This document shows positions 6,262 to 17,722 of a stretch of 64,000 nucleotides of DNA, piece after piece (the first letter of the stretch is position 1; every line of letters starts with the position of its first letter). The stretch is from NCBI RefSeq assembly GCF_001267925.1, contig NZ_CP011409.1, positions 4,712,001 to 4,776,000 of the forward strand, in the 5' to 3' direction. This DNA comes from Herbaspirillum hiltneri N3. Lineage in GTDB: Bacteria > Pseudomonadota > Gammaproteobacteria > Burkholderiales > Burkholderiaceae_D. The position numbers were made by a program, and so were the translations under genes. The notes beneath the pieces are model-generated. The model did not search any database, was not told where the DNA came from, and saw only the letters and a list, made by a program, of their open reading frames with translations.

Positions 6262-6885
6262 TCAGCCGAGCAAGTCCTCGACATCCAGCAAGCGCTGGGC
6301 GATTTCGGAAAGTTTGAGGTTCTTGTTCATGGCCATGCTGCGCAGCTTTTGATAGGCCTCGTCTTCCGACAGTTTGTGCCGGGACATCAGCAGGCCCTTG
6401 GCGCGCTCGATCACCTTGCGCTCGGCCAGCTTGTGCTTGGTGTCCGACAGCTCGGTCAGCAGCTTCTGCTCCTGGCGGAAACGCGCCAGCGCCACGTCGA
6501 GCACCGGCTTGATCCGTTCGGCTTGCAGCCCGGCCACGATATAGGCGGTGACGCCGGCTTCCATGGCGGCTTCCATGGTACTGGTGTTGTCGTCTTCAGT
6601 GAACATGACGATGGGACGGCGTTCGTCGCGCGTGGCGATGACGATATGCTCGAGTACGTCGCGCGCATCCGATTCGGCATCGATGATGATCATGTCGGGC
6701 TGGAGCTGGGCAATGCGTTCGGGCAGGTACTGGTCGGCCGGCAGCGAGGCGATGATGTTGTAACCCGCCTCCAGCAATCCAATGCGCAGAGCTTTGCCGC
6801 GCTCGGCCTGCTCCTGCAGGTCGGTGTCGGTCTCATCGGCATGGTCGATGATGGTATTGACAACGACAATGCGTAGATTGCGCAT
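6262..6885 (-). CDS. nasT: ANTAR-domain antitermination regulator NasT
   Basis: A 207-residue response-regulator-like protein: an N-terminal receiver-type domain (about 1-125), a short coiled coil, and a C-terminal ANTAR RNA-binding domain (about 140-205, with ERKVIERAKGLLM and the LSEIAQRLLD region). The N-terminal strand reads IVVVNT, without the acidic pair of normal receivers, as is usual for NasT. NasT binds paired hexaloop hairpins and blocks leader terminators; such a leader lies directly downstream. The ATG at 6885 aligns with other NasT proteins; an in-frame ATG at 6912 is possible. No nasS, its usual nitrate-sensing partner, is present in the window. Confidence 0.92.
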   Translation of the reverse strand: MRNLRIVVVNTIIDHADETDTDLQEQAERGKALRIGLLEAGYNIIASLPADQYLPERIAQLQPDMIIIDAESDARDVLEHIVIATRDERRPIVMFTEDDNTSTMEAAMEAGVTAYIVAGLQAERIKPVLDVALARFRQEQKLLTELSDTKHKLAERKVIERAKGLLMSRHKLSEDEAYQKLRSMAMNKNLKLSEIAQRLLDVEDLLG

Positions 6886-7352
6886 GTGAGGTTCCAATGT
6901 TCGCCTGGACATCGTAAATCGCTTCCGAACTCGTTACGGGTCTGGGTGGCTGTGGCACATCCGGTACCGGACTAATGCCGGCTTCATGTTGCCATACCTC
7001 CACGCTGCATGCCCTCCCGAATATCCCTGGCTGCAGCGGGCGAATAGTAACCCATTTGGAAAATGCGGCACACTTTCCATCATCTTGTGATGTACATTGG
7101 CTACATGCCGCGGCTGCACTTGCAGGCAACAATCAAGCAAAAATCAAACCAGAAAACCGCAACGCGGTCGCCTCGCCCATGCCGCATCCCCTACTCCGCC
7201 ACTCGCCTTTTCCTACAGGAAATTGAGGAAGACGCCTATCTACCGCAAGCAAAGCGGTTGTTAACATCCATCGCATCAACTGTCTTTGGCATGTTGTTTG
7301 GCACATTGAACGCCACCTTGGATTCGCACCACCCGCCTGGAGGAGATTACCC
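6886..7352. other. Gene-free region between nasT and the outer-membrane protein gene
   Basis: No convincing coding frame on either strand, and no strong hairpin or RNA gene. It must hold the nasT promoter (left part, minus strand) and the promoter of the outer-membrane protein (right part). A TGGCAC at about 7301 lacks a proper partner element for sigma-54, and no consensus sigma-70 pair was found by eye. Confidence 0.5.
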
Positions 7353-8945: not shown

Positions 8946-9161
8946 CTACTTGCCGACCTGGTTGCCGATCACACCGCCAACCGCAGCACCACCCACAGTG
9001 CCCACTGCGCTACCGCCCGTCAGCACGGCGCCGCCGACTGCGCCGACACCGGCGCCAACGGCAGTATTCTTGTCTCGCTGCGACATGCCGCTGCAACCGC
9101 TCAGAACTGTCAGGGCACAGACGGTGATCGAAGTTACGGCGATTTTATGTGCTATTTTCAT
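8946..9161 (-). CDS. Glycine-zipper lipoprotein (OsmB-like)
   Basis: 71 residues. A lipoprotein signal ends in a lipobox LSGC at about residue 22, followed by a Gly/Ala/Val-rich glycine zipper (GAGVGAVGGAV ... GGAAVGGVIG). This fits OsmB/SlyB-type outer-membrane stress lipoproteins. The ATG at 9161 has GAGGTG at the proper distance; a GTG at 9167 is less likely. It is convergent with the gene at 8533-8853 and shares its terminator. Confidence 0.8.
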   Translation of the reverse strand: MKIAHKIAVTSITVCALTVLSGCSGMSQRDKNTAVGAGVGAVGGAVLTGGSAVGTVGGAAVGGVIGNQVGK

Positions 9162-9805: not shown

Positions 9806-9979
9806 TTAACGGTCCTTCAGCGCTTCCTTGGCGTCGCCGTAGCTCTTCTGAGCAGTACCGTCAATTTGCTTGGCGGCGCCCTTGACTTGCTGCTCCTTGC
9901 TATCGACCATTTCGCCTGCCTTTTGCTGGACCTTGCCTGCTACTTCTTTTGCCTTGCCTTGAACTTGATCTTTATTCAT
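9806..9979 (-). CDS. CsbD-family stress protein
   Basis: A 57-residue, highly charged protein beginning MNKDQVQGKAKEVAGKV and ending KEALKDR. The repeated Lys-Gly-Ala-x-Lys pattern and size fit CsbD (YjbJ) proteins, which accumulate under general stress; their molecular function is not established. It has no signal peptide, so it is cytosolic. The two-part motif TTGTCCTAC-N16-GTCTTAT at 10093-10124 lies about 115 bases upstream in the same orientation. Confidence 0.85.
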   Translation of the reverse strand: MNKDQVQGKAKEVAGKVQQKAGEMVDSKEQQVKGAAKQIDGTAQKSYGDAKEALKDR

Positions 9980-10092
9980 GATGGCTCCTGAAAGTGAAGG
10001 GACCAGTTACTGTCATCCAGCACAGTCAACTGCACACATCTCCTTGGTGGAAACGCGATGATTCATCTTAATCAGCCGCGCTTTTCGCGACC

Positions 10093-10124
10093 ATAAGACA
10101 GCCCCGCTTTGCAGCGTAGGACAA
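10093..10124 (-). promoter_or_regulatory. Two-part stress motif, copy A
   Basis: The minus strand reads TTGTCCTAC (10124-10116), 16 bases, then GTCTTAT (10099-10093). The same elements with identical spacing occur at 16277-16308 and 16832-16863. The position suits control of the CsbD-type gene at 9806-9979. It may be an alternative-sigma promoter or a regulator site; which is not known. Confidence 0.55.
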
Positions 10125-10162
10125 TGCGCAAAGAAAGATTCAGGAAGAGGAATTGACGCAAA

Positions 10163-10189
10163 CCGGCCTGCAGCAAGCGTGCAGGCCGG
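10163..10189. terminator. Hairpin after the sensor kinase gene
   Basis: 10-bp stem CCGGCCTGCA / TGCAGGCCGG with a 7-base loop, immediately beyond the kinase stop codon on the minus strand. Only a short T-run follows, so termination is likely but not certain. Confidence 0.6.
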
Positions 10190-10192
10190 GGT

Positions 10193-12208
10193 TCAGACGT
10201 CAGCAACGGGCGCCAGCGGGAGACGTATCGAGATGATGGAGCCATTGCCGGGAGTCGAACGGATGACGACGTTGCCCCCGAAGAAAGTGGCGCGCTCGCG
10301 CAAGCCGCGCAAACCGTAAGTCTTGTTGTTGTCCTGGCGTTCCTGCGGAATGCCGACGCCGTTGTCGCGCACCGTCAGCGAGACCTGCTCCTCATCGACG
10401 TCGAGGATGACGTCGACCTGGTTCGCCTTGGCGTGCTTGGTGACATTGTTGAGCATCTCCTGCAGCATGCGATAGATCGCGATTTCCATCTCATGGCCGA
10501 TGGTCACATCTTCATCGGGCAGGCTGGCCTTGCATGTCATGCCGGTGCGCTCGGCAAGGTCGTCGAGCTGTTCGGTGATGGCCGCCTTGAGGCCGAACAG
10601 ATCCAGCATGTTCGGCCGCAGCTCGGTCTGGATGCGCCGCGTGGTGCTCACCAGCGAACTCATCAGTCCCTGCATGCGCGGCTTGCGCTCCTGCCACTTC
10701 TCGTCTTCGGGCAGGATCTTGTAGACGCTCTCCAGGTGCATGCTCAGCGCCGTCAGCGACGCGCCCATGTTGTCGTGCAGCTCGCGGGCGATGGCGCGCT
10801 TCTCTTCTTCGCGCACGGTTTCCAGGTGGTTGGTCAGCTCGCGCAACAAGGCGGTTCGCTCGACCACGGTCTTCTCCAGCTGCGCTTCGCGTTCGCGCAA
10901 GGAATCCTCGGCGCGCTTGCGTTCGGAAATGTCGGTGCTGATGCCAATCACGCCGAGGACATTGCCGGCCTTGTCGAACCACGGCACGCGCGTGGACTGA
11001 TACGTGAAGACGCCGTGCTGCAGATGCAGCGTCTGCTCGATCGTCTCCGGCAAACCGTGCGCCATGACGCGCCTGTCATCTTCATCAATGCGGTCGGCTT
11101 CGTCGCGTTCGGCAAACAGCTCGCGGCTGGAGCGGTACATGGCTTCTTCCCAGCTCTTGCCAACCTGCTGCAATAGCGCCGGATTCGCAAACACCAGCAA
11201 TCCCTGGCGATTCTTCACGAAGATCGGTTCGCGAGTGCTGTCACTGACCGCGGTCAGCAAGGAGTTGGCCTCGGCCAGCTTGGCCGCGCTCTGCATGCGC
11301 GCGCCGTATTCGCGGTCCAGCTTGCCGGCGAAACGCCAGAATACGAACACCACCAGCGCGCCGTCGATCAGGGTCAGGAAAGGCAGCATCAGCTGATCGG
11401 AATACAGCCCGCGCTCCGCCCCCTTGGCGACCAGCAGGTTGAGCAGCAAGATCAGGAACAGCATCGACGGCAGCAGGCGCCGAAGCATATTGCCTCCCGG
11501 CGCATGGCCGATGATGATGGACATCAGGCGGTGCGAAGGCCGCGCCATCAGCAAGGCTGCACCGAGCACCAGGAAGCCCAGTGCCGTCAGCAAGGGAATG
11601 CCGGTCGAATAGCGCAGGAAGGTCAGTTTGCTGATGCCGTACAGATAACCGACCAGCGGAATGGCGCTCAGACCGATCAGGATGAACGCCAGATATTCAG
11701 CCGGATAGTGGCCGCCGCGAATGCGCAGCTCTTGCAGCAACAGGATCAGCGCCGTGAGCAGGAAACAGCCGGCCGCCAGCGGATGAATCTCCGCGCCGAA
11801 CGCGCTGCCCGCCATGGACAGTACCGGCAGCGCGGCATGCAGCAATTTCACGCCGAACAGATTTTGCAACAGGAAGCCCGCGCTCAACAGCAACAGCAAC
11901 GTGGCAAGTACACGGGCAGCCAGCGCCAGCTTGCGGCTGGTCTTGTCGACATTGAGGCATTGCAGGTAAAGAGCTACGCCGGAGAGAATGAAGCCGGCCG
12001 CCGAACTGCCCTGGACGGCGATCAGGTCGGCCAAGATCTTGCGATAGCCGTCTTCCGCGTAGCAACTGCTGAGAACCACCACGCCGAACAGCGCGATGAT
12101 CATCGCCAGACTCATGGCGGCGCTGATGATGCTGGCGAAATTGGCCTGGGTGGCGACGTAGTGCTCGAGCGAAGAACTCTCGCCGATATCGTTTCTGACT
12201 GACGTCAT
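10193..12208 (-). CDS. Membrane PAS-domain sensor histidine kinase (NarX/HisKA_3 type)
   Basis: 671 residues. The N-terminal half has about eight or nine hydrophobic segments forming an integral-membrane sensor of unrecognised type. A PAS domain follows (about 325-440, ending IGISTDISERKRAE), then a coiled coil, a HisKA_3 dimerisation helix with phospho-acceptor H478 in RELHDN, and an HATPase domain with N-box LNNVTKHAKA and G-boxes DNGVGIP and GLRGLRER. This class phosphorylates NarL/LuxR-type regulators, and one is encoded just upstream at 12946-13575. The ATG at 12208 follows AGGGG. The signal sensed is unknown. Confidence 0.88.
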   Translation of the reverse strand: MTSVRNDIGESSSLEHYVATQANFASIISAAMSLAMIIALFGVVVLSSCYAEDGYRKILADLIAVQGSSAAGFILSGVALYLQCLNVDKTSRKLALAARVLATLLLLLSAGFLLQNLFGVKLLHAALPVLSMAGSAFGAEIHPLAAGCFLLTALILLLQELRIRGGHYPAEYLAFILIGLSAIPLVGYLYGISKLTFLRYSTGIPLLTALGFLVLGAALLMARPSHRLMSIIIGHAPGGNMLRRLLPSMLFLILLLNLLVAKGAERGLYSDQLMLPFLTLIDGALVVFVFWRFAGKLDREYGARMQSAAKLAEANSLLTAVSDSTREPIFVKNRQGLLVFANPALLQQVGKSWEEAMYRSSRELFAERDEADRIDEDDRRVMAHGLPETIEQTLHLQHGVFTYQSTRVPWFDKAGNVLGVIGISTDISERKRAEDSLREREAQLEKTVVERTALLRELTNHLETVREEEKRAIARELHDNMGASLTALSMHLESVYKILPEDEKWQERKPRMQGLMSSLVSTTRRIQTELRPNMLDLFGLKAAITEQLDDLAERTGMTCKASLPDEDVTIGHEMEIAIYRMLQEMLNNVTKHAKANQVDVILDVDEEQVSLTVRDNGVGIPQERQDNNKTYGLRGLRERATFFGGNVVIRSTPGNGSIISIRLPLAPVADV

Positions 12209-12283
12209 GTGCTGAAGCCCCTGATTTTTTCGTGGGCCGCGCAGCGAGGCGCGGCGGCATGCAGTGACATTATATTGGGTTGC

Positions 12284-12307
12284 GGCATCGTGGCATCGCG
12301 GCATCAC
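12284..12307. repeat. Three tandem 8-bp repeats upstream of the kinase gene
   Basis: GGCATCGT, GGCATCGC and GGCATCAC follow one another without a gap, 76 bases upstream of the kinase start codon. A minus-strand TATAAT lies just downstream at about 12270. The repeats could be a regulator site or a chance short tandem repeat. Confidence 0.5.
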
Positions 12308-12363
12308 GTCTTGGCGATGTGAACGCGACCTGAACGGCGGGGACGATATCCCGGAGAGAGAAA

Positions 12364-12837
12364 CTAAGCTGGCGCGAATCCGCGCGATGGATTGTTTTTC
12401 CCCGACGCGCCACGTCCGCTGATGCGCTCGATCAGATTGCGCAGTTTGGTGAACTCCGACGATTTGTCAAAGAAGAACTGTACGCCGTATTGAACGCCAA
12501 CGCGGCGATAGGTCGAGCTGACATGGTTGCTGAAGATGATCTTGAGTTCATCATGGCGGCGCTGGCCCGTGCGCGCCAGCGATTGCAGCAAGTGCATGCC
12601 GTTGCCCTGCTTGAGCTGGATGTCGAGGATGAGCACGTCATAGTTCTCGTTTTCCAGACGCGTCATCGCATCCTGTTCCGTCTCGGAATAGCCGGCCAGC
12701 ATCACGCCGGGGATTTCGGCGAGACTCTCGATGATGAGGTCGCGCACGTCCGCCGAATCTTCAACCAGGAAGATCTTGAGCGGCGTATCCGGTGCATGCC
12801 CCTTCCTTGTCGCCAGTTCTTGCAGTGCATCTTCCAT
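12364..12837 (-). CDS. Stand-alone receiver-domain response regulator
   Basis: 157 residues with a single receiver domain (about 20-142) and no output domain. Acidic pocket E26/D27 lies in FLVEDS, the phospho-acceptor is D72 in LILDIQ, and the conserved lysine lies in FFDKSSEF. A 19-residue N-terminal extension and a basic C-terminal tail flank the domain. It sits between the LuxR-type regulator and the sensor kinase on the same strand, so it probably acts as a competing acceptor, phosphate sink or protein-interaction switch for that kinase. Confidence 0.85.
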   Translation of the reverse strand: MEDALQELATRKGHAPDTPLKIFLVEDSADVRDLIIESLAEIPGVMLAGYSETEQDAMTRLENENYDVLILDIQLKQGNGMHLLQSLARTGQRRHDELKIIFSNHVSSTYRRVGVQYGVQFFFDKSSEFTKLRNLIERISGRGASGKNNPSRGFAPA

Positions 12838-12945
12838 GATAACTATCCAAAAACGTCTAACAATCCACCATCAATGCGGCACACTGCCGCTCGTCTCCCG
12901 CCTCGCAATGCCTCGTCATGCCCCTTCCGGCCGGCAAGTCCGCCA

Positions 12946-13575
12946 TCAGTCAATCAGGTTGTTCTTGATTGCGTAATAAATAATGTCGGCGTTGTTCGCC
13001 ATGTTCATCTTTTGCAGCACACGTGAGCGATAGGTGCTCACGGTCTTGACGCTCAGGCAGAGTTCATCGGCGATTTGCGTCACGCCCTGCCCCTGCCCCA
13101 GCTTGTAGAAAATTTCGTATTCACGCTGCGACAAAGTCTCATGCAGCGGTTTTTCCGAATCAACCGGATCGGTGGTCAGCAGCTCGGCCACGCCGTAGCT
13201 GATGTATTTATGGCCGCGCAAAATCGTGTTGATGGCGCTGACCAGATCGGTCGCGAGCGCTTCTTTCTGTACGTAACCGCTGGCGCCGCTGCGCAATACC
13301 TGGACCGCATAGCGGCTTTCGGGATGCATGCTGAGCATCAGGACCGGCAGGTTAGGCTTTTCGCGCTTGATCTGTTTCAACACTTCAACACCGCTCTTGT
13401 CGGGCATGGCGATATCGAGCAGGACGATGTCCCACTCCTGGGTGCGCACCAGGCGAATCGCTTCTTCGGCCGTGCTGGCTTCGCCGCCGACTTCCATGTT
13501 CGGGATGTCGGCAATGAAATGCTGAACACCGGCGCGCACTACTGCGTGATCATCGACTACCAATATTTTTGTCAT
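12946..13575 (-). CDS. LuxR/NarL-family response regulator
   Basis: 209 residues: an N-terminal receiver (D8/D9 pocket, phospho-acceptor D54 in LLDIAMPD, lysine in GYVQKEA) and a C-terminal LuxR-type helix-turn-helix (about 143-205, LSQREYEIFYKL ... SVKTVSTYRSRVLQKM). It resembles UvrY/GacA and NarL regulators. The ATG at 13575 gives the conserved MTKILVVDDH start; in-frame starts at 13590 and 13593 also lack a good ribosome site. It is probably the partner of the kinase at 10193-12208. It is a candidate, unproven, for controlling the surrounding stress genes. Confidence 0.9.
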   Translation of the reverse strand: MTKILVVDDHAVVRAGVQHFIADIPNMEVGGEASTAEEAIRLVRTQEWDIVLLDIAMPDKSGVEVLKQIKREKPNLPVLMLSMHPESRYAVQVLRSGASGYVQKEALATDLVSAINTILRGHKYISYGVAELLTTDPVDSEKPLHETLSQREYEIFYKLGQGQGVTQIADELCLSVKTVSTYRSRVLQKMNMANNADIIYYAIKNNLID

Positions 13576-13772
13576 AGTTTTTACCAGCATCAAGGCAATG
13601 CTGCATATCTCTCATTGATCAGGCAAATGTGGTCAAACTGCCTGCGGTGCATGCACACCTGATGATTCTGCAGCCCGCCCGCCATTTGTTCAGAGTGATC
13701 CGGGAATCCGGACATCTTCCGCGGCTAACTATACCTCAACGATTGCAAATTTCGTACCATTTGAATGCACCT

Positions 13773-13806
13773 CAGGGAGGCGACCGCGTTCGCGGCAGCC
13801 TCCCTG
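13773..13806. terminator. Hairpin after the BON-domain gene
   Basis: CAGGGAGGC (13773-13781) pairs with GCCTCCCTG (13798-13806), with an inner CCGCG-CGCGG stem. It sits directly past the stop codon of the BON-domain gene. No T-run follows, so it may be an RNA 3'-end stabiliser and not a classical terminator. Confidence 0.55.
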
Positions 13807-13818
13807 CGGACGGACTAC

Positions 13819-14136
13819 TTATTTCAGGCGCAGATCATTCTTGACCGAGGTCACGCCCTTGACGCCGCGAGCCAGTTCAGTTGCGCGGCTCGCCGCTGTT
13901 GCCGAACTGACAAAACCGCTCAGCTGGACCACGCCCTTATAAGTTTCGACGTTGATTTCAGTCGCCTTCAGGTTCGGTTCCTGCAGGATGGCAGTCTTCA
14001 CCTTGGTTGTGATGACAGCGTCATCGACGTATTCGCCGGTGCCTTCCTTGTTCGGTCCGGAGGCGCAACCGACCAGCGACACCATCATCAGTGCGAGGAA
14101 AAAGCCTGTAATGCGTTTGGTCAAAGATAAAGTCAT
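13819..14136 (-). CDS. BON-domain lipoprotein (OsmY-like)
   Basis: 105 residues. A lipoprotein signal ends in a lipobox VGCAS at about residue 24, followed by one BON domain (about 38-103, DDAVITTKVKTAIL ... VQLSGFVSS ... VKNDLRLK). BON domains bind phospholipid or anchor envelope proteins; OsmY-type members are induced by osmotic stress. The ATG at 14136 follows AAGGAG. It is convergent with nothing nearby and lies among other stress genes. Confidence 0.88.
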   Translation of the reverse strand: MTLSLTKRITGFFLALMMVSLVGCASGPNKEGTGEYVDDAVITTKVKTAILQEPNLKATEINVETYKGVVQLSGFVSSATAASRATELARGVKGVTSVKNDLRLK

Positions 14137-14260
14137 GATGGATCTCCTTGTTGGTAAATTCAATTCGTGTTGCCTGCGATTGTTTTATGGAGAAGCATCG
14201 CTACCTCTCCATGACCTTACTGTGATACTGGGTTGCTCAAATGCATCCGGGGGATACAGA

Positions 14261-14638
14261 TTACTTGGCGTACTTGACCTTGGCGTCGGCCTGGCACTTG
14301 TCCTTGGCAGCACCGCTCATGGCGTCGCATTTTTCCTTGGCGGCGCTGTAGTTGGCGTCATTGCTGGTTTCTTTTGCGTCCTTCTTGGCGTCGGTCGACT
14401 TGCGCTTGGCCTTGGCGTCGGCTACGGCCGTTTCATGGGCAGCCTTGGCTTCCTTCTGGCAGACATCCTGTTCATTGCCCTTGAGCGGTTTGCACTTGGC
14501 CTTGGCGGTCTTGTAGTCCGCATCGGCGGCAGCAACGTCAGCCTTGTATTGCGATTTGACGGCATCTGCCGCGCTGGCCAGGCCATGGGCGCCCAATGCG
14601 GCGGAAGTCAGGATACAAGCGGCGATAATTTTTTTCAT
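14261..14638 (-). CDS. Small exported Lys/Ala-rich protein with two C-x10-C units
   Basis: 125 residues: signal peptide (about 1-24, ending LASAA) and a very Lys/Ala-rich, probably helical body. It carries two repeat units, CKPLKGNEQDVC with QKEAKA after it, and CDAMSGAAKDKC with QADAKV after it. The first unit closely matches one in the exported protein at 8533-8853. The regular cysteine pairs suggest intrahelical or helix-hairpin disulfides in the periplasm. No named family is recognised. Part of a minus-strand run of stress genes. Confidence 0.7.
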   Translation of the reverse strand: MKKIIAACILTSAALGAHGLASAADAVKSQYKADVAAADADYKTAKAKCKPLKGNEQDVCQKEAKAAHETAVADAKAKRKSTDAKKDAKETSNDANYSAAKEKCDAMSGAAKDKCQADAKVKYAK

Positions 14639-14719
14639 GAGTAACTCCTCTGGTTTTATTGAACGTTGGTTTTTTGCGCCGTCGTGCGGCAGGCAAGCGA
14701 CTTCAGACTGCGGGAAGGA

Positions 14720-14932
14720 TCAGTGACGCCAATCCTTGTGGCTCTCTTCGAAAGCCTTGATCTGCTTCTCGGTTTCGTCCTTGTTGATGCCGTAGACTTC
14801 CTGGATGCGGCCGGCCAGTTGTTCGCGCTTGCCGTTGATGGTGTCGAGCTGGTCGTCGGTCAGCTTGCCCCATTGTTCCTTGGCCTTGCCTTTGAACTGT
14901 TTCCAGTTGCCTTCGATGATGTCCCAATTCAT
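14720..14932 (-). CDS. CsbD-family protein (YjbJ-type)
   Basis: 70 residues beginning MNWDIIEGNWKQFKGKAKE, the diagnostic start of YjbJ-type CsbD proteins, followed by QWGKLTDDQL and a conserved charged C-terminal helix. Cytosolic and abundant under stress in relatives; no enzymatic role is known. AAGGAG lies at the right distance from the ATG at 14932. It lies downstream of the ferritin-like gene and may share its transcript. Confidence 0.93.
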   Translation of the reverse strand: MNWDIIEGNWKQFKGKAKEQWGKLTDDQLDTINGKREQLAGRIQEVYGINKDETEKQIKAFEESHKDWRH

Positions 14933-15008
14933 GTTTCGCTCCTTTGTGGTGATGGCACGAATGCCGTGTTGATGGTGCACGCCCGGCTCACAGGCCGGAC
15001 AGGCGCAG

Positions 15009-15563
15009 TCAATCGAGCAGGTCGCTCATGTCGTCGGCGTGTTCTTCTTCCTTCGCCATGATGGAAATGAGCAAATGCTTGGTGGTTGGATCGTCGTCGC
15101 CGATGCGTTCGATCATCTGGCGATACGTTTCGATGGCGATGCGCTCGGCGATCAGGTTGGCGCGGATCATCGACTTGATATCGCTGGAATCGTCGTAGTC
15201 CGCATGGCTGCGCTCGGACAGCTTGCTCGGATTGAAATCCGGTTCGCCGTTCAATTGCACGATGCGCTCGGCGATCTGGTTGGCATGCGCTTCTTCTTCC
15301 GCCGCGTGCTCCAGGAACTCGGCCTTGATCGGCTCGTTCTCCAGGCCGCTGGCGGTGAAATAGTGGCGCTTGTAGCGCAATACACAGACCAGTTCGGTCG
15401 CCAGCGCATCGTTGAGCATCGCCACGACTTCTTCGCGATTGCCCTTGTAACCCTGGGTCACCGCGCCGTCGCCGATTTTCTTCGCGGCTTCGCGCACTTT
15501 GTCGCGATCGATGTGAAACGGCTCACCTGAAATATGGCTGACCGTCGATGGTTTGCTTGACAT
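15009..15563 (-). CDS. Ferritin-like di-iron protein (bacterioferritin-type)
   Basis: 184 residues forming a four-helix ferritin-like bundle. Di-iron ligand motifs are visible: E57 in ATELVCVLRYKRHYF, EHAAEEEAHA on the second helix, ERIAIETYRQ on the third and KEEEHADD on the fourth. This fits bacterioferritin/Dps-like proteins of stress regions, which store iron or remove peroxide. No haem-binding methionine can be assigned with confidence. A basic 40-residue N-terminal tail precedes the bundle. Cytosolic; neighbours are CsbD and DUF883 genes. Confidence 0.85.
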   Translation of the reverse strand: MSSKPSTVSHISGEPFHIDRDKVREAAKKIGDGAVTQGYKGNREEVVAMLNDALATELVCVLRYKRHYFTASGLENEPIKAEFLEHAAEEEAHANQIAERIVQLNGEPDFNPSKLSERSHADYDDSSDIKSMIRANLIAERIAIETYRQMIERIGDDDPTTKHLLISIMAKEEEHADDMSDLLD

Positions 15564-15652
15564 GATGATGTCCTCTTATCCGGTTGGCTGGCTACAAGCA
15601 GCTATTGCTATTGCGCATGGTGCGCGGCTGTGGACCGTGAACAGGCGAACGC

Positions 15653-15964
15653 TCAGCGTTCACCGGTGCGCGACACGCACAGGCCGAGCAGCAAGCCGAG
15701 GCCGGTCGAGATCGCGATGGCGCGCCACGGGTTCGATTGCACGTAGTCGTCGGTCGTGGAGACGATCTCCTTGCCGGTCTGGACCACATAGGATTGAATG
15801 CCTTGCGCCTTGATGAAGGCGCGATCCAGGATTTCTTCACCCTTGGCGCGCAGGTCCTCGGCTTTCTTGCCTGTGGTTGCGGCAGCTTCGGTGAACAGCT
15901 CCTGCGCTTCCTGCAGCAGGACCTGGACGTCGCTACGGACGGTTCGCAATTTATCTTCGCGCAT
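15653..15964 (-). CDS. DUF883 (ElaB/YqjD-type) membrane-anchored protein
   Basis: 103 residues: an amphipathic, coiled-coil-like N-terminal part (about 1-72) and one C-terminal membrane helix (about 80-97, NPWRAIAISTGLGLLLGL), ending in a short basic tail. The NPWRAI motif before the helix is characteristic of ElaB/YqjD/YgaM proteins, which tether ribosomes or other partners to the inner membrane in stationary phase. GAGAGG precedes the ATG at 15964; an ATG at 15982 has no ribosome site. Confidence 0.92.
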   Translation of the reverse strand: MREDKLRTVRSDVQVLLQEAQELFTEAAATTGKKAEDLRAKGEEILDRAFIKAQGIQSYVVQTGKEIVSTTDDYVQSNPWRAIAISTGLGLLLGLCVSRTGER

Positions 15965-16030
15965 TTCTTGCCTCTCTTTCATGTTGGTTGTCAGCTTCAG
16001 CAGCGAGCGGCATTTTCTTGATGCCGGCGC

Positions 16031-16114
16031 TCAATCCATGAAGTACTGAAGGATGAGCAGCATCAGCAGAGGCATGCCCAATAACCAGCAAATCACCAGT
16101 TTTTCTTTTTCCAT
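16031..16114 (-). CDS. 27-residue membrane peptide
   Basis: The frame encodes MEKEKLVICWLLG followed by MPLLMLLILQYFMD: a charged start, one membrane helix and a short tail. It shares the pattern W-x-L-G-x-P, hydrophobic run, F-x-x with the 25-residue peptide at 17096-17173, and both lie in the same gene cluster. The ribosome site is weak. Copy B of the stress motif (16277-16308) lies about 165 bases upstream in the same orientation. Function unknown; the match to a second copy is the main support. Confidence 0.6.
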   Translation of the reverse strand: MEKEKLVICWLLGMPLLMLLILQYFMD

Positions 16115-16276
16115 GGTTGCACCCGTTTCGATCGTTCTTGTGTATTGAAACGAACAGCTTGTCTCTTCCTTGCAATTCCCTTTGCTTCACTGCTGCGGTT
16201 ACTACCTCGTTCCTTGCTTGCTGCCGATGCCGATAAGTCGGTAACTCAACGATACTGACGGTGGTGTGCAGCGGCG

Positions 16277-16308
16277 ATAGGACTGCGGCTGATTACCTTG
16301 TAGGACAA
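16277..16308 (-). promoter_or_regulatory. Two-part stress motif, copy B
   Basis: The minus strand reads TTGTCCTAC (16308-16300), 16 bases, then GTCCTAT (16283-16277), identical in spacing to copies A and C. The left element also forms a CCTTGT-AGG-ACAAGG inverted repeat. It points toward the 27-residue peptide and the DUF883/ferritin-like/CsbD genes. Confidence 0.55.
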
Positions 16309-16326
16309 GGCCGCAATCGGCTGTCG

Positions 16327-16533
16327 TCAAGGTGTTGCGTCCTGCGACAGGTCGTCCTTGACGGGCATGGCCGGCGTAACGACGTTGCCGCCTTCGCCTT
16401 CCCAGCGCTGCAATGCCTTGCGATGCAACCGCGCATCGCGGCTCGACAAGCGGTTGGCGCAGACATTCAGGACCGCGACGACAGCGGCGCCGGTCAGCCC
16501 CAGCGTGAGCAAAAGATTTCGTGTATTCAGCAT
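16327..16533 (-). CDS. Small membrane-anchored protein of unknown function
   Basis: 68 residues: one N-terminal hydrophobic helix (about 6-26) and a polar tail with RKALQRWEGEGGNVV. Similar RWEGEGG-containing small proteins are known in related betaproteobacteria, but no function is established. A GGGAGCC site precedes the ATG. It lies between two copies of the stress motif on the same strand as the genes to its left. Confidence 0.65.
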   Translation of the reverse strand: MLNTRNLLLTLGLTGAAVVAVLNVCANRLSSRDARLHRKALQRWEGEGGNVVTPAMPVKDDLSQDATP

Positions 16534-16566
16534 GTCGGCTCCCTGTTCGTCATACGGTGGCGCGGC

Positions 16567-16761
16567 TCAGGCGGACATGTGCTGTTTGAGCGAACGCTTG
16601 ATAAGCTGCCGCGCTTCACCCATCGTGCGCTGCACCTTGCCGGCTTGCTGCAATTGCGCGGCGTGGCGGAGGTGCGCCTTATCGTGCATCAGGGTCGCCA
16701 GGTTTTCTTCCAGGCGGGCCACGACGATTTTCATGTTGCCAAGCAGTTGATCCTTGTTCAT
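16567..16761 (-). CDS. Small CsbD-like helical protein
   Basis: 64 residues beginning MNKDQLLGNMKIVVARLEE and ending in GKVQRTMGEARQLIKRS. The start and the GKVQ-x-x-x-G-x-A-x-x-L segment recall CsbD proteins, but the middle is more hydrophobic and basic, so the family assignment is tentative. GAGGAG precedes the ATG at 16761. Copy C of the stress motif lies about 70 bases upstream in the same orientation. Confidence 0.7.
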   Translation of the reverse strand: MNKDQLLGNMKIVVARLEENLATLMHDKAHLRHAAQLQQAGKVQRTMGEARQLIKRSLKQHMSA

Positions 16762-16831
16762 GACGCGCTCCTCGGTGATTGGATGGATGAAGCAGTGGAA
16801 CAGATCGTAGCAATGCCCCCTGGCAAGAGGT

Positions 16832-16863
16832 ATAGGACGCCCGCCCATTGTCTTGTAGGACAA
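16832..16863 (-). promoter_or_regulatory. Two-part stress motif, copy C
   Basis: The minus strand reads TTGTCCTAC (16863-16855), 16 bases, then GTCCTAT (16838-16832). It lies about 70 bases upstream of the CsbD-like start codon at 16761, the closest of the copies to its gene. Confidence 0.58.
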
Positions 16864-16935
16864 GATGAGAACCCTTTATGGACAAGGGTTTCAGCCGATC
16901 TGGCAGGAATATTTACCGGCATTCTCCCCTTGTCT

Positions 16936-16963
16936 CCTACAACAGATTGCGCAGGCGTCTGAT
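16936..16963 (+). promoter_or_regulatory. Two-part stress motif, degenerate copy D
   Basis: The plus strand reads CCTAC, 16 bases, then GTCTGAT. It keeps the core and the exact spacing of copies A-C but differs in the outer bases of the left element and at one base of the right. It points toward the genes at 17096 and 17258. Confidence 0.35.
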
Positions 16964-17095
16964 GGCGGCTGCGCATCGTGGCGACTACGATGCATAGACG
17001 GATTTGCACGACGCTTGTGTTGCGTTTGTGTTGAATGCAACGGCTGTGCGCATCATCCCGGTCACCTGACCTCACTCTTGAACAAGGAACAAGCC

Positions 17096-17173
17096 ATGGG
17101 TAAGTATTTCCTCGCCTGGATACTCGGCGTCCCTGCCTTCGTACTGGTGCTGATTTACTTTTTCCTGCACTGA
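17096..17173 (+). CDS. 25-residue membrane peptide
   Basis: Encodes MGKYFLAWILGV followed by PAFVLVLIYFFLH: a single membrane helix with W-x-L-G-x-P near its start. AAGGA lies 7 bases before the ATG, a good site for so short a frame. It resembles the 27-residue peptide at 16031-16114. The PA2169-type gene follows 84 bases downstream and may be cotranscribed. Function unknown. Confidence 0.7.
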   Translation: MGKYFLAWILGVPAFVLVLIYFFLH

Positions 17174-17257: not shown

Positions 17258-17722
17258 ATGAAAAACGACCGACTGATTGACACCCTGAACGACCTGATCC
17301 AGATCTCCAAGGATGGTGAAGAAGGTTTCCGGACCTGCGCCGAAGATGCCTCGGAACGTCAGGCCTATTACAAGACCCAGTTCCTGGAACGCTCGCAGGC
17401 CTGCGGCCAGACCGTGCTGGAATTGCAAAACCTGGTGCGCGCGCTGGGCGGCGATCCGGCCACGCACAGCAGCGTGAGCGGCACCCTGCACCGCCAATGG
17501 GTGAACATCAAGAGCGTCATCATGGGCAAGGACGATGAAGCCATCCTGAACGAGTGCGAACGCGGCGAAGATGCTGCCGTCAATGCCTATCGCAAGGCGC
17601 TGTCGGAGGACCTGCCGAGCGATGTCCGCCTGATCGTCGAACGCCAGTACCAAGGCGTGCTGGCCAACCATGACCGTGTGAAGGCATTGCGCGATCAGGT
17701 GCGCGCCAAGAAAGCGGCTTGA
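17258..17722 (+). CDS. PA2169-family four-helix-bundle protein (DUF2383)
   Basis: 154 residues of helical sequence: LNDLIQISKDGEEGFRTCAED near the start, then ALGGDPATHSSVSGTLHRQWVNIK in the middle and ECERGEDAAVNAYRKAL in the third helix. This is the conserved arrangement of DUF2383/PA2169 proteins, ferritin-like bundles without an obvious complete metal site, often found with CsbD and DUF883 genes. Cytosolic, of unknown function, probably stress-related. An intrinsic terminator follows the stop codon. Confidence 0.9.
   Translation: MKNDRLIDTLNDLIQISKDGEEGFRTCAEDASERQAYYKTQFLERSQACGQTVLELQNLVRALGGDPATHSSVSGTLHRQWVNIKSVIMGKDDEAILNECERGEDAAVNAYRKALSEDLPSDVRLIVERQYQGVLANHDRVKALRDQVRAKKAA

Follow-up and report, generated by a model that had tools for sequence, protein, structure and literature searches.

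Within a 64,000-nucleotide stretch of the Herbaspirillum hiltneri N3 genome (the window, to which positions refer unless another record is named), a two-part motif, TTGTCCTAC-N16-GTCYTAT, recurs in a cluster of small stress genes. Very likely it is an operator at which a NarL/FixJ-type response regulator from the same cluster, here called RR-A (or, in Massilia-type genera, a related regulator, RR-B), acts as class II activator of the small stress genes. Its two elements are direct repeats, TGTCCTA and TGTCYTA, lying 23 bp apart, and four predicted operator sites are present in the cluster:

10093..10124, minus strand: predicted operator site 1 (TTGTCCTAC-N16-GTCTTAT), exact match, upstream of csbD
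16277..16308, minus strand: predicted operator site 2 (TTGTCCTAC-N16-GTCCTAT), exact match, upstream of a 27-amino-acid open reading frame (ORF) and a run of DUF883, ferritin-like and CsbD genes
16832..16863, minus strand: predicted operator site 3 (TTGTCCTAC-N16-GTCCTAT), exact match, upstream of 64- and 68-amino-acid ORFs
16932..16963, plus strand: predicted operator site 4 (GTCTCCTAC-N16-GTCTGAT), weaker and divergent, three mismatches, matching a relaxed pattern

The three exact copies reported in the initial annotation are confirmed, all on the minus strand, and the exact pattern occurs nowhere else in the 4,965,474-base, one-contig genome. The fourth was correctly placed on the opposite strand, but its start at 16936 had trimmed an element whose full span is 16932-16963; it has three mismatches to the exact pattern and looks weaker but genuine. 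All four sites are intergenic and each is directed at a small gene, as had been claimed, the genes in question being the CsbD, 27-, 64- and 25-amino-acid ORFs. At up to three mismatches the window contains five matches, compared with a mean of 0.16 over 100 shuffles, no shuffle attaining five; the fifth match (7208-7239, plus strand) lies away from the stress genes. In the home genome at up to one mismatch there are five motif matches against none for the reversed pattern, and at up to two mismatches five against five. A relaxed pattern, TNTCCTAY-N16-GTCYNAT, matches six times in the whole genome and its reverse not at all; four of the six are the cluster sites, including the fourth copy, and given one site the chance that at least three of the other five fall in the same 6.9 kb is p ~3e-8.

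The spacing of the two repeats is fixed. In a search of 195 Oxalobacteraceae genomes that accepted any gap between 6 and 30 nt, 43 of 46 exact matches had a gap of 16, with single matches at 19, 22 and 25, while the reversed pattern over the same 25 gap lengths gave 53 matches, about two per length by hand count. A further constant element lay outside the search patterns used to collect the sites: a sigma70-like -10 hexamer (TAnnnT) stands 21-23 nt past GTCYTAT in 67/67 exact Oxalobacteraceae-type sites (omitting sites less than 70 nt from the end of a stretch), and in just 4/56 exact matches outside the family. With near-copies removed it is present in 31/31 exact family sites versus 2/37 others. 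A set of 122 exact or one-mismatch sites, taken from the window and from fetched loci, reduces to 65 non-redundant ones; of these, 61 have the hexamer at 21-23 nt (49 at 22 nt and 12 at 21 or 23), and at each of nine other 3-nt windows tested at most three have it. The T, A and T columns of the -10 reach 78%, 86% and 83% in the aligned family sites, the commonest words being TAAGAT and TACGAT, and all six relaxed-pattern sites of the home genome carry the hexamer at exactly 22 nt. Matches to TTGACA at four or more positions were seen at the -35 in 0/61 sites with a 17-bp spacer, 4/61 with 16 bp and 2/61 with 18 bp. These promoters combine a good -10 with a poor -35, and the proximal repeat is predicted to lie at about -42. 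With the first T of the hexamer taken as -12, transcript starts in the window are predicted near 10058, 16242, 16797 and 16998, from the following hexamers read in the sequence:

10065..10070, minus strand: predicted -10 TAAGAT of site 1, 22 nt past the operator, a position conserved in the family
16249..16254, minus strand: predicted -10 TATCGT of site 2, 22 nt past the operator
16804..16809, minus strand: predicted -10 TACGAT of site 3, 22 nt past the operator
16986..16991, plus strand: predicted -10 TACGAT of site 4, 22 nt past the operator

In established promoter architecture two mutually repeating elements at about -65 and -42 denote the operator of an activator, and the motif reads as such a direct-repeat operator of a class II-type promoter. 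A further home-genome element followed by a -10 precedes the gene of a predicted membrane protein (G000:C1:4515058-4515114, L252) and is outside the six relaxed matches.

The motif is restricted to Oxalobacteraceae within the genomes searched. Among 84,980 species, each represented by one genome, the exact motif occurs in 116 stretches, which we sorted by record title into 60 from Oxalobacteraceae or near (including two Betaproteobacteria metagenome-assembled genome (MAG) contigs) and 56 others (including L084 and L119, titled beta proteobacterium and Pseudomonadota). The 56 were taken as unrelated, the -10 accompanying just four of them. The strict motif with its -10 was found in 0/290 genomes of the order outside the family and in 6/10 family genomes of that same draw. 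Both the genome-wide scan and the comparison within Oxalobacteraceae that had been suggested as checks gave favourable outcomes. Exact matches in Rhodobacteraceae appear by eye to lie in a def-type coding frame, and in the Bacteroidales MAG UBA5219 at least six contigs (L006, L016, L031, L033, L066 and L099) bear TTGTCCTAC-type sequences that look like an unrelated repeat.

The initial annotation had offered two explanations, a -35/-10 pair of an alternative sigma factor and a direct-repeat operator for a regulator such as the LuxR-type protein encoded at 12946-13575. The latter, RR-A, is supported by its neighbourhood, the fixed spacing and co-occurrence across the 195 genomes, and is the best-supported candidate for the binder, together with its counterpart RR-B. 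The regulatory genes of the cluster are:

12946..13575, minus strand: NarL/FixJ-type response regulator RR-A, the proposed operator binder (PF00072 and PF00196; co-occurrence; synteny)
12364..12837, minus strand: stand-alone receiver-domain protein (PF00072, E 1.7e-13)
10193..12229, minus strand: sensor histidine kinase, presumed partner of RR-A (PF08448, PF07730 and PF02518)

RR-A consists of a receiver followed by a GerE/LuxR helix-turn-helix (HTH) domain (PF00072 E 2.9e-28 and PF00196 E 1e-15, both above cut-off), and the kinase of an N-terminal part without Pfam match followed by PAS, HisKA_3 and HATPase_c domains. The window protein is identical to RR-A of Herbaspirillum-titled loci such as L036, L042, L047 and L111. 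RR-A shares a fetched stretch with an exact site in 17/27 Herbaspirillum-titled and 6/8 Collimonas-titled loci, some of the misses being edge effects because the stretches are 8 kb or shorter; at the linked loci identity is 82-100% for RR-A, 45-98% for the kinase and 57-91% for the receiver protein. Five of 30 RR-A loci have a site with a -10 at a distance of some 0.3 kb from the RR-A gene. A Collimonas site faces RR-A; the other four, in genus g16, face away, in G015 toward a receiver gene. Sites placed before regulator or receiver genes in these two genera likewise support the operator reading.

Across the 195 genomes RR-A orthologues, at 75% identity or more, are clearly separated from the listed paralogues, at 52% or less. 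RR-A occurs in 58 genomes and RR-B in 56, and none has both: RR-A is found in Herbaspirillum, Collimonas, Herminiimonas and others, whereas Massilia-type genera have RR-B and no RR-A. (Massilia-type is a loose label for genera g6 and g40; g28 was equated with Collimonas, and g4, g12 and g19 with Massilia, through identical site strings.) The recognition helix of RR-B (G018:C1:4280768-4281397, L231) is similar to that of RR-A. Its gene lies near ihfA, this and a merR-like neighbour having been read by eye from ORFs, and identity to L231 is 91-100% in genera g4, g6, g12, g19 and g40, with four other genomes at 69-80%. A tree of the 34 regulator sequences left from 63 after near-copies were dropped groups RR-A with RR-B (95/92), with a long-branch warning. 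Sites at up to one mismatch are present in 51/58 RR-A genomes, 34/56 RR-B genomes and 3/81 genomes with neither (Fisher 8e-26), the reversed pattern in 9, 1 and 10 of these sets, respectively; the per-genome lists and the match lengths were transcribed by hand, and the set sizes agree with the tallies (88 site genomes, 56 with RR-B). RR-A alone, with sites in 51/58 versus 37/137 genomes (p 1e-15), explains less than RR-A and RR-B together. Exact sites with a gap of 16 are present in 38 genomes, 27 with RR-A, 11 with RR-B and 0/81 with neither, while the three exact matches whose gap differs from 16 come from genomes lacking both regulators. A genus-level test of regulator against site gives 16/23 versus 1/21 (p 8e-6). 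Kin of RR-A outside the family were found in 5/290 genomes of the order, at 53-59% identity (E <=1e-70); the one such stretch inspected (L275) has a receiver gene behind the RR-A kin and one weak site with three mismatches.

Several observations weigh against RR-A and RR-B as the activators at these sites. Co-occurrence is confounded by descent, which the genus-level test lessens and does not remove. Chance matches are to be expected at up to one mismatch, the reversed pattern reaching 20/195 genomes at that threshold. Seven of 58 RR-A and 22 of 56 RR-B genomes (29/114) have no site at up to one mismatch, and three genomes, G025, G062 and G084, have a site (one mismatch) and neither regulator. 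Genus g40 appears to have the weakest sites, the one inspected there (L220) lacking the -10. In the six stretches (3.6 kb) checked, RR-B had neither stress genes nor sites in its vicinity. Across the 12 genomes of the window's genus, the home genome included, the 1.5 kb on either side of RR-A contain no site even when three mismatches are allowed, so autoregulation is not general and for the home genome was rejected. The inverted half-site that head-to-head dimers would call for is barely visible, its mean identity being 1.68 and 2.20 of 7; one conserved G, at position 20, fits an inverted arrangement. Finally, the sign of the effect, activation or repression, is not provable from sequence.

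Three other explanations bear on these data. The two fixed elements with a 16-nt gap recall the layout of promoters for extracytoplasmic function (ECF)-type sigma factors, to which stress-gene targets are suited, and the motif itself would then be the -35/-10 pair, with transcription starting just past GTCYTAT. We rejected this as highly improbable because a conserved sigma70-like -10, which such a pair leaves unexplained, follows 21-23 nt further downstream; moreover, the elements repeat each other, unexpected for a -35 and a -10, and a scan of 19 window proteins found no sigma-factor domain above cut-off, the sub-threshold Sigma70_r4_2 match of RR-A being of the kind that HTH proteins have. 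It is also unlikely that another DNA-binding protein, for instance a different NarL/FixJ regulator, binds the motif while RR-A and RR-B ride along by descent. The three site genomes without either regulator are what such a protein would produce, a further NarL-type regulator being encoded some 3 kb from the site in one of them (G062), and the recognition helices of the paralogues are similar; against this, the paralogue group at about 45-52% identity is also present in many motif-free genomes, RR-A and RR-B together cover 85/88 site genomes at up to one mismatch and 38/38 exact-site genomes, and RR-A is physically linked to the sites. The G062 regulator (G062:C9:5400-6026), near a GlsB-type operator site at 9048-9079 (L236, L187), is possibly a third regulator.

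A repressor, blocking the promoter until stress lifts the block, could also occupy a site at about -42 and so impede polymerase. We regard this as very unlikely, since the sites lie entirely upstream of the predicted -10, at an almost invariant distance from it, and there is no -35, which fits contact with polymerase. We infer instead an activating pathway in which the neighbouring kinase would sense stress and phosphorylate RR-A, and phosphorylated RR-A would bind both repeats cooperatively, one dimer to each, with both dimers on roughly one face of the helix. The dimer nearer the promoter would then contact RNA polymerase in place of a -35 and recruit it to the -10, so that CsbD, DUF883 and other small stress genes would be switched on. 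In Massilia-type genera the related RR-B would take the same role. More tentatively, and with rather less confidence than would make it our working assumption, Oxalobacteraceae may conduct a general stress response by means of a two-component activator acting at sigma70-type promoters; in the history of the family the regulator would have changed, with the operator and its precise spacing from the -10 preserved.

BvgA of Bordetella is a NarL/FixJ-family protein. At BvgA-activated promoters several dimers bind head-to-head in helical phase with centres 22 bp apart, the last abutting the -35; the strong Pfha site is TAAGAAATTTCCTA, and a poor -35 is combined with a good -10, TAAAAT at Pptx (PMC7250471). 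The likeness lies in the TCCTA end of the Pfha site TAAGAAATTTCCTA, shared with the motif, and in a proximal site predicted to abut the -35 position of a promoter with a good -10 and poor -35. The repeat spacing, by contrast, is close but not equal (23 bp, the gap being 16 in 43/46 matches, against 22 bp), the heptad is TGTCCTA, two repeats are visible with a hardly conserved inverted partner, and the targets are general stress genes. Given the 23-bp spacing and barely conserved partner heptad, we class the system as resembling BvgA promoters in mechanism without counting it a BvgA member. RR-A also resembles EvgA, RcsB and GacA (UvrY) in its receiver and LuxR-type HTH (NCBIfam E 7.2e-28, 1.3e-23 and 1.5e-50, respectively), but falls far below the NCBIfam cut-offs for all three (97.6 versus 251, 83.7 versus 235 and 171.9 versus 280 bits). 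The half-sites of these regulators are TCCTA-like. By sequence the closest solved structures to RR-A include VraR, DevR, NarL and EvgA. General stress regulons driven by sigma factors such as RpoS, SigB and EcfG have targets of a kind that overlaps those found here (CsbD, GlsB/YeaQ-type, KGG, DUF883/ElaB and catalase), whereas the switch described here has the look of a sigma70-type promoter under a two-component activator.

The operator and regulon appear new, within an already known kind of system. A literature search of titles and the beginnings of abstracts, of partial coverage that does not establish absence from print, returned no description of the motif or regulon. What emerges for this family of bacteria from soil, plants and cold habitats is a concrete operator with a candidate regulator and a list of targets, all belonging to a stress regulon that seems not to have been described, and a case in which two mutually exclusive regulators apparently share one operator.

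The genes of the cluster that follow the four sites are:

9806..9979, minus strand: csbD (57 amino acids), target of site 1 (PF05532, E 6.8e-14)
16031..16114, minus strand: 27-amino-acid ORF, first after site 2 (translation)
15653..15982, minus strand: DUF883/ElaB-type protein (PF19029 E 2.2e-11, PF05957 E 1.9e-06), probably co-transcribed from site 2
15009..15563, minus strand: ferritin-like protein (PF00210, E 2.7e-23), probably co-transcribed
14720..14932, minus strand: second CsbD (70 amino acids; PF05532, E 3.7e-20), probably co-transcribed
16567..16761, minus strand: 64-amino-acid ORF, target of site 3, in relatives also downstream of the motif
16327..16533, minus strand: 68-amino-acid ORF, second after site 3, adjoining the motif in relatives
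17096..17173, plus strand: 25-amino-acid ORF, first after site 4 (translation)
17258..17722, plus strand: DUF2383 (PA2169-type) protein, after the 25-amino-acid ORF (PF09537, E 2.7e-36)

The two csbD genes of the cluster are the only PF05532 genes found in a search of the home genome. The protein earlier called PA2169-type belongs to DUF2383. The description of the 64-amino-acid protein as CsbD-like is not supported: it has no significant Pfam match, and in some relatives the match regions show weak similarity (27-35%) to the 57-amino-acid CsbD. For the 27- and 25-amino-acid ORFs similarity in relatives is at DNA level at best. An ANTAR-domain regulator of the RNA-binding antiterminator type (6262-6912, minus strand) lies near the cluster, and is beside it in L010, L112 and L121 too.

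Comparable targets recur across the family. For each of the 65 non-redundant sites up to two of the longest downstream ORFs were taken, a procedure that also yields false frames, and the resulting 118 ORFs were scanned against Pfam; the counts are of ORFs, not independent events. Matches comprise CsbD (9), Transgly_assoc (GlsB/YeaQ-type, 8), DUF883_C (7), KGG (6), Response_reg (5), GerE (3), Mn catalase (2) and MscS (2), with single matches including PGI, an S33 hydrolase, DUF4142, BON and a Crp-type regulator. Genus g1, with 12 genomes, has 49 sites at up to one mismatch and none for the reversed pattern, its targets including GlsB-type (named from sequence), lipase/S33-type and phosphoglucose isomerase genes. 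In Massilia-type genera a site precedes a KGG-type gene, or in genus g6 a DUF4142 gene. In three g19 genomes (L254, L255 and L260) TCCTAC-N16-GTCCTAT, with a -10, stands before a recQ-like helicase gene.

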